IMG/VR virus record: IMGVR_UViG_3300003323_000819 | Coordinates: 7,604-32,061 of that record | Direction: 5' to 3' (one strand) | From: a virus | DNA: 24,458 nucleotides | In this document: positions 2,363 to 19,851 of the stretch, in pieces | Numbering within the stretch: the stretch's first letter is position 1 | How the letters are laid out: the number at the start of each line of letters is the position of its first letter | The notes under the pieces: model-generated | What the model saw: only the letters and a program-made list of their open reading frames with translations | Told to the model about the DNA's origin: nothing | Database searches by the model: none | Translations under genes and position numbers: made by a program

Positions 2363-2540
2363 AAAAGGTTGGGAGCCGAAGCACCGGTCCAGGCGGGTAA
2401 GCAAGGCCAGCCTGCTACCGAAGCCGGACCCGACGCTGAGCAACCATAAACGCATGCAGCTCCGCCAAAACGCCCGGAACTATCATAAGGAGATGGACGA
2501 GCAGTTGCAGGAGGAGCTGGCCAAGGATGCTTCATCTTGA
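2346..2540 (+). CDS. Small basic hypothetical protein
   Basis: Not recognised; 64 residues. The first half is rich in Lys and Arg (KNKLKKGWEPKHRSRRVSKASLL). The second half is a probable amphipathic helix ending acidic (RMQLRQNARNYHKEMDEQLQEELAKD). GTG start at 2346, with a weak AGGAAA at 2333-2338. It overlaps both its neighbours: 17 bases into the preceding small basic gene and 14 bases into the methyltransferase gene. The AGGAGGAG at 2509-2516 inside it serves as the methyltransferase RBS. Confidence 0.55.
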   Translation: MKNKLKKGWEPKHRSRRVSKASLLPKPDPTLSNHKRMQLRQNARNYHKEMDEQLQEELAKDASS

Positions 2541-3561
2541 TCTGTTCTCCGGCATCGGTGGGTTCGCTTATGCAATCGACCAGGTGTGGGATAATGTAGA
2601 CCATATATTCTGCGACAACGACAAGTTCTGTAAGCAAGTATTAAAAAAACACTGGCCGGAAAGCGAGATATACGACGATGTCAGAACCCTTATTACCAAC
2701 CCCGACTTCATCCGACATATACACGGGGGACCTGAAGAGTTCCCAGCGGGCGGACAACACCAAACACAGCGTCAACCTGAGTCAGGTATTCAGCCATCCG
2801 GCATATCTACCGACGCCACAGTCAAGGGATTGGAAGGGGAAATCGGGCAAGAACTTCAACAACCAAAACCTGCCAAGCGTCCTTTCATCCTCACCGGAGG
2901 CTTCCCTTGCCAGCCGTTCTCTCAGGCTGGAACTCGAACTGGAGCCCACGACGACCGTTACCTCTGGCCGGAAATGTTTGAGGTTATTAAATTTACAAAA
3001 CCCGAGTGGGTCGTCGCTGAAAACGTTAGTGGAATACTTACTTGGGGAGATGGTTTGGTCTTCGACAAGGTGTGCCTTGACCTGGAAAGTGCAGGGTACG
3101 ATGTCCAACCGTTTATTATTCCGGCTGCGGGCGTCGGTGCTCCCCATCGACGAGACCGAATTTGGTTTGTTGCCTACGCCTCGGGTCTCAGAGATCGAGG
3201 GAGCTCCGGTCAAGAACGCCGAGTACAAGAACGGGAGCTGGTCCCGGACCAACGAGCAGGGAATCCGGCACGGGGTCAAGGTCAAGGACGTCCTGGCCAT
3301 GCTACCGACACCGCGCCACGCCAATCCCGGAAGTCGCCCGAACAAGAAGGGCGGGAAAGTTTTGAACGAGGAAGTTGGGAAAGGAACTGGTATGAAGTTG
3401 CAACCGAGCTTTGTAGAGTGGATGATGGGCTTCCCGCCAGGCTGGACGGATTTGAACTCACCAAGCCCCAACACAAGGCCCAGCGAATCAAGGCCCTCGG
3501 CAACGCCATAGTCCCGGAAGTCGCCCAGGAAATCATGCGTGCTATAAAAGAGTCCGTTTAG
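2527..3561 (+). CDS. DNA (cytosine-5-) methyltransferase
   Basis: Transfers a methyl group from SAM to C5 of cytosine in DNA, probably to protect phage DNA from host restriction. All core motifs are present in 344 residues: motif I DLFSGIGGF (5-13), motif IV GGFPCQPFS with catalytic C128 (124-132), motif VI AENV (164-167), motif VIII APHRRDRIWFV (205-215) and motif X ALGNAIVP (323-330). Two segments look unlike folded protein: residues about 58-118, an insertion before motif IV, and about 216-290, where the target-recognition domain should be. Both are Gln/Gly/Arg-rich, and both lie over the conserved-looking parts of a second frame (2678-3511). AGGAGGAG ten bases upstream supports the start. 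No restriction endonuclease partner is visible. Confidence 0.92.
   Translation: MLHLDLFSGIGGFAYAIDQVWDNVDHIFCDNDKFCKQVLKKHWPESEIYDDVRTLITNPDFIRHIHGGPEEFPAGGQHQTQRQPESGIQPSGISTDATVKGLEGEIGQELQQPKPAKRPFILTGGFPCQPFSQAGTRTGAHDDRYLWPEMFEVIKFTKPEWVVAENVSGILTWGDGLVFDKVCLDLESAGYDVQPFIIPAAGVGAPHRRDRIWFVAYASGLRDRGSSGQERRVQERELVPDQRAGNPARGQGQGRPGHATDTAPRQSRKSPEQEGRESFERGSWERNWYEVATELCRVDDGLPARLDGFELTKPQHKAQRIKALGNAIVPEVAQEIMRAIKESV
2678..3511 (+). CDS. Overprinted 277-residue ORF inside the methyltransferase gene (LPTP-module protein)
   Basis: Function unknown. Read in the +1 frame relative to the methyltransferase, it stays open for 834 bases and looks like a real protein. There are four LPTP modules, at residues 6-9 (LLPTPTSSD), 44-47 (LPTPQSRDWKG), 165-168 (LLPTPRVSE) and 209-212 (MLPTPRHANPG). 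A middle block contains SGRKCLRLL and LTWKVQGTMSNRLLFRL. A C-terminal block QPSFVEWMMGFPPGWTDL spans 242-259. From memory, ORFs with LPTPTA..D repeats and LNPxFVEWLMGFPxGWT occur near or within phage cytosine methyltransferase genes, usually unnamed. The RBS at 2678 is weak. The frame is open from 2645, just after an A7 run, so a start by frameshift from the methyltransferase is possible. It could also be a conserved by-product frame. Confidence 0.5.
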   Translation: MSEPLLPTPTSSDIYTGDLKSSQRADNTKHSVNLSQVFSHPAYLPTPQSRDWKGKSGKNFNNQNLPSVLSSSPEASLASRSLRLELELEPTTTVTSGRKCLRLLNLQNPSGSSLKTLVEYLLGEMVWSSTRCALTWKVQGTMSNRLLFRLRASVLPIDETEFGLLPTPRVSEIEGAPVKNAEYKNGSWSRTNEQGIRHGVKVKDVLAMLPTPRHANPGSRPNKKGGKVLNEEVGKGTGMKLQPSFVEWMMGFPPGWTDLNSPSPNTRPSESRPSATP

Positions 3562-7049: not shown

Positions 7050-8429
7050 CTAACCACTGCTTGAAGCGTGTAGATGCACCAAGGAGCTACCCGTGACGGA
7101 TGAGGCATCACCGGTTTCCACGGCCACTGTGACGTTAGTCGTCGAAGGGGCGGCGTTGATGGCAGCGACAATCTTGACCGTACCGGACGGTGTCCCGGCC
7201 ACTACGGCGGTCGGGGCGACCAGGAAAAAGCCGGCGGGCCAGGTCACTACGCCCGTGGCTTGGGCCGAGGCACTCAAGGAGATACTGTTAGTTGTCCCCC
7301 AAACTTCTTTGCGCGGACCACGCTGCTGGTAGTAGAAGGTACCACCGGCCGAACCGGCGTTGGTAAAGCTGAATACCCGGGTTTCAAATATCGGCCGGTT
7401 GATGATAATCGAAGTAGCCGGCAGGGACCAGTTGAAGGAAGCCGTGGCTCCCAAGATGGCGTTGAAACGGCCGACGTTCTCGGCTTCGTCGGTGCTGGCC
7501 GGCGCCGTGCCGGAGCCACCGAAGTAGTTCCAGTTCGTGCTGGTGGTCGAGAAGTCGGAGTAAACCCGCATGTTGGGGTCGCTGGAGAAGGCTATTTGCA
7601 CGGCACTGGTGTTGGTGTTCCAGACCAGGTAAACGAAATAGTCAGACTCGGCGGTGGCGAATATCGACGCACCCTTGCCGAACCAGCTGGTGCCGGCGTT
7701 CAGCGTCACTGATAGGGCACCCGTGATAGCCCGCACGGTGTTGCCGATACGCACGTAAACCGGATTGGTCGAGGAGGGGTCATTACCGTCGACGGTTTTT
7801 ATAGCCACCGTCAGGTTATTGGAAGCCACCGAAGTGGTAATTTTGCCGTTGATAAGCATCCCCTGGGGATAAGCTCCTTTAGGGATGACCAAGCCGGAAC
7901 CCTTGCCGTTGAACAGCAGATTGATATTGCTGTCGTCACCGTTGGCTTCGACTTTGACAGGATTGCCGGTGGCGGAGTTGGAAATCTTCACCTGGTTGAC
8001 GGCCGAGGCCACGGACCCGCGCTCCAGCCACTCATTGCCGTTATCGTCGGTCAGTGTCTTGTGATTGCCGTTCGGATTGGAGTGATCTTGTAGCAGGAAG
8101 TCGATGAGGTCGTTCCACATCTGTCCGGAGTTGACGAATTCGATGACAGCGTTGGCCAGGTGGGCCTGGGCGGTCGTGCCTTGCTGGCCCCGGACCAGGT
8201 TGGCGAGAGTGGAGCCTGACACGACACCGGTCATAAGCTCCCGCAGCGTCGGGGTTTTATTGCCGTTGCTGTCTACTCGGTCGACCACAAAGCTTACGCC
8301 GGTGTCGGTCGGGATGTTGGTGGTGTTATTCGGGGTCAGGGAAGAAGCTACGTCAGATATGCCGGAGCTGAGGGTCTTTTGAAGGTAGGAGTAGCTTTTT
8401 CTTGCTTTGTCTGATGCGGAGGCGGCCAT
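7050..8429 (-). CDS. Putative tail fibre / receptor-binding protein
   Basis: A 459-residue structural protein. The N-terminal part (LRELMTGVVSGSTLANLVRGQQGTTAQAHLANAVIEFVNSGQMWNDLIDFLLQDHSNPNGNHKTLTDDNGNEW) resembles virion-attachment regions of phage tail fibres (RG..GTTA.AH...V.......WNDLI...H). The rest is a Ser/Thr/Gly/Ala-rich beta repertoire with no charged helices, typical of fibre shafts and tips. The ATG at 8429 is chosen, with AAAGGA ten bases upstream. Upstream in-frame codons run into a terminator hairpin and cannot be the start. It is the first gene after the 8.5-kb leader, so it may be separately controlled. Receptor unknown. Confidence 0.65.
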   Translation of the reverse strand: MAASASDKARKSYSYLQKTLSSGISDVASSLTPNNTTNIPTDTGVSFVVDRVDSNGNKTPTLRELMTGVVSGSTLANLVRGQQGTTAQAHLANAVIEFVNSGQMWNDLIDFLLQDHSNPNGNHKTLTDDNGNEWLERGSVASAVNQVKISNSATGNPVKVEANGDDSNINLLFNGKGSGLVIPKGAYPQGMLINGKITTSVASNNLTVAIKTVDGNDPSSTNPVYVRIGNTVRAITGALSVTLNAGTSWFGKGASIFATAESDYFVYLVWNTNTSAVQIAFSSDPNMRVYSDFSTTSTNWNYFGGSGTAPASTDEAENVGRFNAILGATASFNWSLPATSIIINRPIFETRVFSFTNAGSAGGTFYYQQRGPRKEVWGTTNSISLSASAQATGVVTWPAGFFLVAPTAVVAGTPSGTVKIVAAINAAPSTTNVTVAVETGDASSVTGSSLVHLHASSSG

Positions 8430-17871: not shown

Positions 17872-18280
17872 TTTGCGACCTGGCTTTTAATTCGGTTGAT
17901 GATAACGAGCCCACTCTTGGAATATAAACCAAAGCGATGCGGTTGGCATCTAAAAAATCCTGGTCGACGTCGATTTGGGAGTAGTAGTCCTTGCGGGCCC
18001 AGTCGCTCCCGATGGCGATGACGTCCGGCTGGATTTCTTCGATTAGCTCCCGGCCGGCACTGGAATTCTTGACCACCACGTAGCCCAGGCTTTCGATGAG
18101 GTTGGCCCGCTCGGCGTACTCATATAAAGGACGCCTGCCTTTGTAGCTTTCGACGAACTCGTCGGAATTGACGCCCACCACCACGTTCTCGCCATAACGC
18201 TCGCACTCTTTGAGCAGGATGGCGTGGCCCATGTGGGGCGTGTCGAACGTCCCCATGGTCAGGACGGTGCGTTCTTTCAC
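17855..18280 (-). CDS. Cytidylyltransferase-like protein (TagD/RfaE-C type)
   Basis: Probable nucleotidyltransferase that activates a sugar- or polyol-phosphate with CTP or ATP. Of 141 residues, GTFDTPHMGH (10-19) carries the HxGH signature. VVVGVNSDEFVESYKGRRPLYEYAERANLI (33-62) matches the family's nucleotide and substrate region, and SLSSTELK (125-132) matches the C-terminal ISSTxLK motif. Its closest-looking relatives are glycerol-3-phosphate cytidylyltransferases and RfaE C-terminal domains; an FAD-synthetase-like role is an alternative. The GTG start overlaps the groEL stop (GTGA). It probably makes the activated precursor used by the downstream glycosyltransferase. Confidence 0.75.
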   Translation of the reverse strand: MKERTVLTMGTFDTPHMGHAILLKECERYGENVVVGVNSDEFVESYKGRRPLYEYAERANLIESLGYVVVKNSSAGRELIEEIQPDVIAIGSDWARKDYYSQIDVDQDFLDANRIALVYIPRVGSLSSTELKARSQNGQSS

Positions 18281-19851
18281 TCGGCCCCCACGACCAAGGC
18301 ACCGGCGGTCATGCCGACCACGCCCAAACTGACGGCGGTTTCCAGGGCCTGCCTGGTTACCCGGTATGGATCTACGATGCCGACTTTGACCAGCTCGATG
18401 GTCTTGCCGGTCTTGACGTCGATTCCCTTGAGCGGACTGGTGATTTTCTGCGAAGGCTGGTTTATGGCACCCTCAGCTTCGTCTATATCCAGGCCGGAGT
18501 TGGCGACTAGCTGTTTGAACGGTTCCTGCAGGACGGTCTTGAGCAGTTTGGCACCCTCGGTCTTGCCGGTGATTGGCGACAGGTAGAGCGGGACGCCTCC
18601 GCCAGGCAGGTAGCCGTCGCTCATGGCGGCCTTAGTGGCGGCCACGGCGTCGTCGACCCTGAACTTCTTCTCCTCGATTTCGGTCTCGGTCTGTCCGCCC
18701 ACCCGAATCATGGCGACCTTGCCTTCCAGGTTGGCCTTGCGTTTTTCAAGCTGTTCCTTGTCGTACTCGCTGGGAGCGTTCTTGATTTGCTCGGCCAGCC
18801 AGTCCACCCGGCCGGCTAAATCGCCCTCGACGCCGATGAAGGTGGTCTTGTCGCGCGTAGCGATGACCTTCTCGGCCCGGCCGACATGCTCCATGGTGGC
18901 GTTCTCCAGTGAGACTGTGTCTTCGGAAATAACGGTGGCGCCGGTCACGGCCGCCAGGTCGTCGAGTATCTTACGCTGCTGGGCCCCGAAGCTCGGAGCC
19001 TTGATGGCGATGGACCGGAAAGTGCCCTGGGTGGAATTCAGGACCATCGAGGGCAGGGCGTCGCCTTCGATGTCCTCGGCGATGACCACGCACTCCTTGA
19101 TGCCGGCCTGGTCGATGTGGCCGAATATCGGCAGGATTTCCCGGAAGGAATAGACCTTGCGGTGCATGATGAGTATCGCCGGCTTGTTGGCCAGCACGGC
19201 CTCGCCCCGGGAATCGTCGGTCACCATATAAGGGCTCAGCCAGCCCCGCTCCAATTGCAGGCCGGTCGCCATCTCGGTGGTGGTCTCCCGCTGCATGACC
19301 TGGTCGACGGTCACGGTCCCGGCCGGTCCGACCTGGTGGACGGTCTCAGCCACGACCTTGCCGATTTCCTCGTCGTTGCCGCCGGAGATGGTGGCGATCT
19401 TGGTCAGCGTCTCCAAGTCATCGGCCGGCTTCTTCAGCTTTTCGAGATAGGCCAGGACCTCGTCGAGAGCTTCCTCGACTTCCCGGGCGAGCACCATCGG
19501 GTTCATGCCTTCCTCGATTTTCTTGGCCGCCTGGGCGAGCAGGTGGTAAGTCAGGACCGTGACAGTGGTGGTGCCGTCCCCGGCCACGTCGTTGAGCTTG
19601 TTGGCGGCTTCTTTTATAAGTTCCTCGCCGATGTTCTCAGCCTCGTCCTTCAGACTGATGGACTTGGCGACGGTCACGCCGTCGTGGGTGACGGTCGGTC
19701 CGAGTCCGCGCCGGCCGATGACGACGTTGCGACCTTTCGGTCCGAGCGTCGTCTTGACGGCGTTATACAGCTTCTCGGCTCCGGCCAGGAGCTTGTCCCG
19801 GGCCTCCTTGTCGAAAAATAAATCAGTAGTCTGCGGGTTCGTCGGTTGCAT
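18277..19851 (-). CDS. groEL: Chaperonin GroEL (HSP60), phage-encoded
   Basis: ATP-driven 14-mer cage that folds proteins. The 524 residues cover all three domains: TLGPKGRNVV (35-44), DGVT (57-60) and GDGTTT (91-96) at the ATP site; RVDDAVAATKAAM (398-410) with the catalytic Asp; GGGV (417-420); and DPYRVTRQALETAVSL near the end. The apical groove for substrate and GroES is conserved (ERGWLSPYMV 201-210, IAEDIEGDALPSMVLN 257-272). The usual C-terminal GGM repeat is missing; the protein ends ALVVGAE. ATG at 19851 follows AGGAAGG by seven bases and overlaps groES by 29. The likely job is folding phage capsid or tail proteins. Confidence 0.95.
   Translation of the reverse strand: MQPTNPQTTDLFFDKEARDKLLAGAEKLYNAVKTTLGPKGRNVVIGRRGLGPTVTHDGVTVAKSISLKDEAENIGEELIKEAANKLNDVAGDGTTTVTVLTYHLLAQAAKKIEEGMNPMVLAREVEEALDEVLAYLEKLKKPADDLETLTKIATISGGNDEEIGKVVAETVHQVGPAGTVTVDQVMQRETTTEMATGLQLERGWLSPYMVTDDSRGEAVLANKPAILIMHRKVYSFREILPIFGHIDQAGIKECVVIAEDIEGDALPSMVLNSTQGTFRSIAIKAPSFGAQQRKILDDLAAVTGATVISEDTVSLENATMEHVGRAEKVIATRDKTTFIGVEGDLAGRVDWLAEQIKNAPSEYDKEQLEKRKANLEGKVAMIRVGGQTETEIEEKKFRVDDAVAATKAAMSDGYLPGGGVPLYLSPITGKTEGAKLLKTVLQEPFKQLVANSGLDIDEAEGAINQPSQKITSPLKGIDVKTGKTIELVKVGIVDPYRVTRQALETAVSLGVVGMTAGALVVGAE

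Follow-up and report, generated by a model that had tools for sequence, protein, structure and literature searches.

Methylation of phage DNA probably serves as protection from restriction. Multispecific C5 methyltransferases of phages are single chains read in one frame, and the small subunit of the E. coli enzyme M.EcoHK31I is read from an overlapping frame. M.AquI and M.EcoHK31I are two-polypeptide C5 methyltransferases (PMC3404938); the latter has been called naturally split (PMC3439449) and is listed as an E. coli Type II restriction-modification system (PMC6456624). According to PMC3404938, the large subunit of M.EcoHK31I (YGGCCR) carries motifs I–VIII and X and the predicted TRD, the small subunit has only motif IX, and the natural split of M.AquI (alpha/beta) lies within the recognition region, with IX and X in beta. 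Several TRDs stand in tandem in one enzyme in the multispecific Bacillus phage C5 methyltransferases, such as those of SPR and H2 (PMC8936443). In ShiLan, a phage methylase gene contains a second protein-coding stretch in another frame; this element is a homing insertion that encodes an HNH endonuclease (PMC11855218). Cytosine methyltransferases of P. larvae phages are listed in PMC6070908, the accessible part of which contains no discussion of the overlap described below.

The locus described here lies in a 24,458-nt stretch of viral DNA (IMG/VR record IMGVR_UViG_3300003323_000819, positions 7,604 to 32,061), referred to as the window. It consists of a methyltransferase gene, whose reading is called frame 0, and an open frame at offset +1 nested in it (Table 1). 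Motifs I–VIII with PCQ and ENV, by which a C5 methyltransferase is recognised, were present in frame 0. The blocks of the window were named (I, IV, VIII, IX, and X) as is usual for these enzymes, and the Cys of GGFPCQPFS is the catalytic one. Motif IX (L-x-P-x7-GFP) was not recognisable in frame 0 of the window in the sequences and alignments; it was found in the +1 frame instead, within a block that includes FVEWMMGFPPGWTDL, and frame 0 opposite this block reads DDGLPARLDG (3421–3450). The parts of the +1 protein include an N-terminal extension, LPTP cassettes with four LPTP starts, and motif IX. Cassette 1 is opposite the frame-0 stretch separating motifs III and IV, and the N-terminal extension is opposite motif VI and the beginning of VII. 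An antisense ORF of 230 aa (2782–3474, minus strand) also lies opposite the overlap. Elsewhere the window encodes a full-length GroEL-like chaperonin (18277–19851, minus strand; phrog_5725, E=4e-128), and no match to a restriction-system nuclease was found among the 10 other window proteins scanned.

Table 1. Parts of the methyltransferase locus (positions refer to the window)
Feature	Position	Strand	Basis or remark
C5-cytosine methyltransferase, frame 0, proposed catalytic subunit, 344 aa	2527..3561	+	PF00145 (E=8.9e-40); family alignment
Motif I, DLFSGIGGF, frame 0	2539..2565	+	
Nested recognition subunit (putative), +1 frame, 277 aa, ATG start	2678..3511	+	ORF list; PHROG_1008 (E=1.1e-28); selection
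LPTP cassette 1, +1 frame	2693..2806	+	cassette family of 22 loci including the window
LPTP cassette 2, +1 frame	2807..2880 (end approximate)	+	
Motif IV, GGFPCQPFS, frame 0	2896..2922	+	
Conserved N-terminal extension of the +1 protein, contains SSTRCALTWKVQGTMSNRLLFRL	2972..3127	+	two family alignments
Motif VIII, APHRRDRIWFVAY, frame 0	3139..3177	+	
LPTP cassette 3, +1 frame	3170..3301	+	cassette family of 17 loci including the window
LPTP cassette 4, +1 frame	3302..3397	+	
Motif IX, LQPSFVEWMMGFPPGWTDL, +1 frame	3398..3454	+	alignments; spacing L-x-P-x7-GFP
Motif X, RIKALGNAIVPEVAQEIMRAI, frame 0	3484..3546	+	constraint back in frame 0 (relatives)

The division of motifs in the window is that of M.EcoHK31I, the closest known enzyme. 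However, the TRD of M.EcoHK31I is placed in the large subunit, whereas the putative recognition region of the window, with the LPTP cassettes, stands with motif IX in the +1 protein; moreover, M.EcoHK31I comes from an E. coli restriction-modification system, whereas the window family is found mostly in viral contigs and has cassettes common to its members. The split of M.AquI is matched by the tandem gene pairs of actinophages Peaches, McFly, and TaylorSipht, but not by the window, in which X is in frame 0. An out-of-frame second protein inside a phage methylase gene is common to ShiLan and the window, but the +1 protein of the window has no HNH match and looks like part of the enzyme. We consider it very probable that one C5-cytosine methyltransferase is encoded here as two polypeptides from overlapping frames, a frame-0 catalytic subunit and a +1 subunit with the recognition region and motif IX, forming a heterodimer that would methylate phage DNA.

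A family profile of frame 0 aligned with M.HhaI at residues 12–177 (I–VIII) and, with a negligible score, at residues 296–318 (X), with nothing aligned between 177 and 296. M.HaeIII aligned with the frame-0 profile as one continuous stretch (residues 1–321); the gap is thus not universal, and the absence of motif IX was judged from the sequences themselves. As judged from its motifs, the methyltransferase of the window is predicted to be complete only as a two-protein enzyme.

PHROG_1008, the family matched by the +1 protein, also matches the C-terminal parts of the single-chain actinophage enzymes OldBen gp68 and IrishSherpFalk gp71 (E 2e-72 and 1.3e-57), as well as tandem Peaches gp76 and TaylorSipht gp41, Dylan gp6, and nested Lily gp63 and Tadhana gp55. 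OldBen gp68 and IrishSherpFalk gp71 contain, in a single frame, motifs I–VIII, LPTP repeats, FPEWMMGWPxGWVT, and GNGVxPQQA, and the single-frame and tandem relatives have LPTP, EWMMGWPxGWVT or a variant, and GNGV. The spacing of the +1 block, L-x-P-x7-G-F-P, equals that of canonical motif IX, for example RRLTPKECFRLQGFP of phiC2. A strict motif-IX pattern missed some loci (52/80 in one group); 59 of these, from several groups, were inspected, and in most the +1 frame had motif IX in a variant form (LNPRFVAEMMGFPPNWTELPF and similar sequences), the region being broken or frameshifted in a few (L029, L046, L135, and L188). Because PHROG_1008 unites the +1 protein with in-frame C-terminal parts of single-chain enzymes, the +1 protein is better regarded not as an unrelated overprint but as what is apparently the missing portion of this enzyme, with its recognition region and motif IX. 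An earlier examination of the letters and open frames of the window (the sequence-only reading) had taken the +1 frame for a second, unrelated protein with LPTP and C-terminal blocks that methyltransferase motifs cannot dictate. The first view is not supported, and the second misses the nature of the blocks, which are methyltransferase parts (recognition region and motif IX) put in the other frame. Its guess of a partner in target recognition is supported.

Searches beyond PHROG gave no match to the +1 protein in Pfam at E<=1, HNH domains included, none in NCBIfam, and, with the +1 profile against PDB sequences, none at E<=1; its PHROG matches were methyltransferase or unknown-function families only, and no counterpart of the N-terminal extension was found. 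AlphaFold gave a poor model for the +1 protein alone (pLDDT 62, pTM 0.26). In a comparison with M.HhaI, the model of a single-chain relative (L355, 100% match to IrishSherpFalk gp71) had 238 aligned residues spanning positions 1–391 (Z 23.3); its LPTP region had a pLDDT below 50.

With the +1 protein of the window as the tblastn query, 57 phage records matched, 31 of which list two features under the match. The nested ORF of Paenibacillus phage Lily, gp63, is annotated as 'g62 internal gene', and that of Tadhana as a second DNA-cytosine methyltransferase. The suspicion of the sequence-only reading that the locus is widespread was borne out in viral and bacterial-genome contigs, as the +1 family overlapped the methyltransferase at offset +1 in 337 of 337 loci from six groups, copies included. 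These were 80 of 125 viral, 80 of 453 viral, and 80 of 289 genome-contig loci obtained with +1 queries, 10 of 10 and the best 80 of 582 viral loci obtained with the frame-0 query, and 7 phage records. The frame-0-query loci had the overlap in 10/10 and in 80/80 of the best 80; the frame-0 profile (A2) was built from +1-query loci and the best 80 were retained, so that 80/80 describes this family and not all C5 methyltransferases. The loci are partly redundant: of the 324 sequences left by later filters, 293 are distinct, and the contig of the window recurs twice (L009 and L089). Two genome loci had an additional overlap at offset 0. In three loci (L188, L303, and L328) one ORF matched both the +1 and the frame-0 profiles, perhaps by frameshifts or fusions.

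Viral contigs as well as genome contigs from many phyla have the nested layout; blastn found no match in E. coli genomes, and among plasmids there were 2 weak records only. The closest matches of the +1 protein in genome contigs include bins of Doudnabacteria, Parcubacteria, and Moraniibacteriota (L259, L260, L261, and L264), and the phage of the window may therefore infect a Patescibacteria host.

The length of the +1 frame was compared with that in randomised versions of frame 0. A +1 run of at least the observed 288 codons occurred in 38 of 20,000 synonymous shuffles and was reached in 5 of 20,000 codon-order permutations. By length alone (p ~0.002) the window is suggestive, not decisive, and the case for dual coding is consequently made by the relatives. 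In all 88 loci tested (the window, 7 phages, and the best 80 of 582 viral loci from the frame-0 query), the observed +1 HMM score exceeded those of all 40 synonymous shuffles of each locus, with means of 197 and 83 bits; the longest +1 run averaged 249 codons, versus 98 in the shuffles, and 20 of 3,520 shuffles were as long as observed. In a further set, the +1 HMM score was above the shuffles in 16/16 nested loci, 13/15 loci without a classified motif IX, 10/11 tandem loci, 28/32 single-chain loci, and 1/2 canonical loci, so that, with the single-chain genes included, this test is not fully specific; the single-chain excess was read as relics or shared composition. A canonical T4-like phage enzyme (L353), which belongs to the group without a classified motif IX, had no signal (14.5 vs 11.6 bits). 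Two canonical phage C5 enzymes with motif IX in frame 0, those of P0092 (L345:1898-2317) and phiC2 (L346), keep long +1 ORFs of 141 and 154 codons, compared with 65 and 57 in shuffles. The P0092 ORF is annotated as gp45 and corresponds to PHROG_16143; these ORFs are possibly a second kind of nested ORF.

Selection was followed along the locus in pairs of relatives. In 34 independent pairs, frame-0 synonymous change was suppressed, being 0.157 in the overlap versus 0.378 upstream, which is the outcome of the synonymous-site check that the sequence-only reading had proposed. Among frame-0-silent changes, the ratio of +1-changing to +1-silent ones was 0.30 (0.24–0.38) in the overlap versus 1.10 (0.79–1.78). 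Values of pN/pS were calculated from isolated differences only, with a fixed transition weight of 2 and no multiple-hit correction; 18 of the 34 pairs were usable at first, and looser patterns with a 74% identity floor gave 36 independent pairs. For the segments upstream, IV–VIII, LPTP, IX, and X, respectively, pN/pS was 0.06, 0.16, 3.11, 1.47, and 0.07 in frame 0 and 4.52, 1.29, 0.10, 0.09, and 4.59 in +1. The region between VIII and IX was constrained in +1 and not in frame 0 in these pairs of relatives. Single-chain controls (9 pairs) had low frame-0 pN/pS throughout (0.18, 0.11, 0.04, and 0.09). In the IV–VIII overlap the +1 value of 1.29 was not clearly below the 1.47 of the single-chain control, and the support there is synonymous suppression (frame-0 pS 0.22 vs 0.43 upstream, 18 pairs).

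Among isolated differences, the three overlap segments had 0 +1 nonsense changes at 596 weighted sites, versus 23 at 242 outside; this zero is in part a consequence of how the loci were chosen, only those with an open +1 hit having been retained. When clustered differences were counted, +1 nonsense changes were not depleted, their ratio to other changes being 0.77 in the overlap and 0.75 outside. From the relay of pN/pS between the frames it follows that the LPTP and motif-IX information is carried by +1, the frame-0 reading there being close to free. Dual coding of the window locus is strongly supported; the sequence-only reading of 2678–3511 stands in this respect, with the shuffles of the 88 loci and the frame-switching constraint behind it, and neither of the results it had named against itself, +1 stops as frequent as by chance or a lack of synonymous suppression, was found.

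Three architectures were distinguished by the frames of IX and X relative to I–VIII: single chain (0, 0), tandem (+1, +1), and nested (+1, 0). In a fourth, seen in L373 (1801–2649), the extension and LPTP cassettes are in +1 and IX and X are in frame 0. Tandem two-gene relatives include Peaches gp77/gp76, McFly, and TaylorSipht, and both IX and X are in the second protein in L339, L344, and L349. A catalytic-domain tree of 98 domains, which is unrooted, required 7 architecture changes versus 22.1 in shuffles, with single and tandem forms mixed in one clade and the remainder mostly nested. Two irregular loci were seen. In deep-sea phage KT997847 (L001, 1734–2659) the methyltransferase switches frame after an N-terminal piece, and the annotation has this piece and the +1 ORF. 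In Ochi17 (L340) the annotation has two methyltransferase pieces, gp73 and gp74, that differ in frame, and a +1 motif IX lies beside a frame-0 motif X.

Parsing of the LPTP region yielded 1 to 7 segments in 304 of 306 distinct +1 proteins, and 346 of 621 internal cassettes fell in 47 families of at least 3. These families were delimited by single linkage after parsing with regular expressions, and no fewer than 3 of them are pieces of the N-terminal extension. As an upper bound, ordinal position being dependent on the parse, 45 of the 47 families occurred at two or more positions. There were 1,756 cassette pairs of at least 65% identity (last segments with IX counted), of which 607 came from methyltransferases less than 50% identical. 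Cassette 4 of the window together with motif IX was 86% identical over 51 aa to a relative (L014) whose methyltransferase was only 33% identical, and the family of cassette 3 includes KT997847. Five families were common to the +1 frame of nested genes and in-frame single-chain genes, for example LPTPTTQDGSNCGGPSQFNRNSLPLNAVVTL in single-chain L355 and WATVTEQDSSNDGGPSQYKRHSLPLNAQVKM in nested L239. Different cassette strings, some of which may be parse failures, were found in 34 of 206 methyltransferase pairs at least 80% identical, such as Tadhana and Lily (85.5%). Among the 143 proteins in which the extension was recognisable, 31 resemble the window in having a cassette on its N-terminal side, and frame 0 before PCQ was longer in such proteins (median 100.5 aa, n = 28) than in the other 263 (67 aa).

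From their position, variability, and exchange, we infer that the LPTP cassettes may be recognition modules. We suggest tentatively that cassettes of about 30–45 residues might be interchangeable DNA-reading modules, whose swaps in +1 would change or add methylation targets with frame 0 passively absorbing them; the cassette order might then be a combinatorial code, allowing fast evolution of specificity in a locked catalytic gene.

For the best +1 start, a Shine-Dalgarno match of at least 4 nt was found in 66% of 325 loci. The best candidates of the other frames had one in 25% of 273 cases, and random positions in 28%; the comparison is rough, as the candidate starts per frame were not equalised. 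The +1 ATG of the window has a weak match of 3 nt. In the proposed mechanism, frame 0 would yield a catalytic subunit with the AdoMet and catalytic motifs I–VIII, a poorly conserved reading of the recognition region, and motif X. The +1 frame would yield a separately started subunit with an extension (over IV–VIII), an LPTP target-recognition region, and motif IX. In the putative heterodimer, motif X would close the fold of the catalytic domain and the +1 subunit would supply the small domain, the extension of nested and some tandem forms being a possible docking part; the heterodimer would methylate phage DNA, probably against host restriction. Translation of +1 in the phage of the window, assembly, methylation, target recognition by the LPTP region, and an anti-restriction role are what we infer from these comparisons.

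Other explanations were weighed against that of one enzyme in two frames. A programmed ribosomal frameshift might fuse frame 0 (I–VIII) to +1 (LPTP and IX), making the latter a C-terminal extension instead of a separate protein. Single-chain forms exist, and the second gene of actinophage tandem pairs is also in +1 and is annotated as starting close to, or beyond, the end of the first gene. However, a fusion would lose motif X, which the nested form keeps in frame 0, and a conserved extension of the +1 protein lies upstream of motif VIII; with the enrichment of Shine-Dalgarno matches at +1 starts and an overlap of 209 nt between Dylan gp6 and gp7, such a frameshift seems unlikely. That the +1 frame encodes an independent protein overprinted de novo, an anti-restriction protein or methyltransferase regulator with a coincidental or mimicked likeness to motif IX, would agree with the extension without a found counterpart and with the lack of Pfam and PDB matches at E<=1. 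It is very unlikely in view of the homology to the in-frame recognition half, the cassettes common to different architectures, the constraint relay, and the absence of IX from frame 0 where +1 has it.

Two further explanations would deny the +1 frame a function of its own. Conserved methyltransferase residues could make a chance open frame look conserved, and indeed shuffles that preserve the frame-0 protein still average 83 bits and window length alone gives only p ~0.002. Nevertheless, all 88 loci exceeded all their shuffles, +1 pN/pS was 0.10 where that of frame 0 was 3.1, and the canonical enzyme L353 lacked the signal; on the synonymous shuffles, which 28/32 single-chain genes also beat, and the substitution classes, this explanation was rejected and is given almost no weight. 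The frames might also be remnants of a former single-chain enzyme broken by frameshifts, as frameshifts or split frames in some loci (L001, L188, L298, and L340) would suggest. The 36 pairs contradict such decay, as pN/pS stays low for each frame within its own segments, and the layout recurs across viral contigs and genome contigs of many phyla; we regard decay as extremely unlikely.

The sequence-only reading had supposed the locus to be undescribed as a dual-coding one. Our literature search, with subscription papers mostly outside it, found no paper that presents this phage family as one enzyme split between frames, and to that extent the supposition stands; it fails in that the nested ORF of Lily already carries its annotation as an internal gene and two-polypeptide C5 enzymes are known. 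PHROG_1008 ('DNA methyltransferase') and Lily gp63 belong to the same protein family as the +1 ORF of the window and are nested by annotation in Lily and Tadhana, but they are named merely methyltransferase or internal gene, with no split-enzyme reading in their records.

In this widespread phage family, one enzyme is apparently spread across two frames, with catalysis in one and specificity in the next. In the records considered here, either a single frame is kept or both carry the name 'DNA methyltransferase', so that annotation may cover only half of such an enzyme, and expression of the annotated ORF by itself would seem to give no activity. With the single-frame control beside it, the relay of selection makes the dual coding and its division of labour unusually clear-cut, and the sharing of cassettes offers a testable route to how phages may alter their methylation targets against host restriction.
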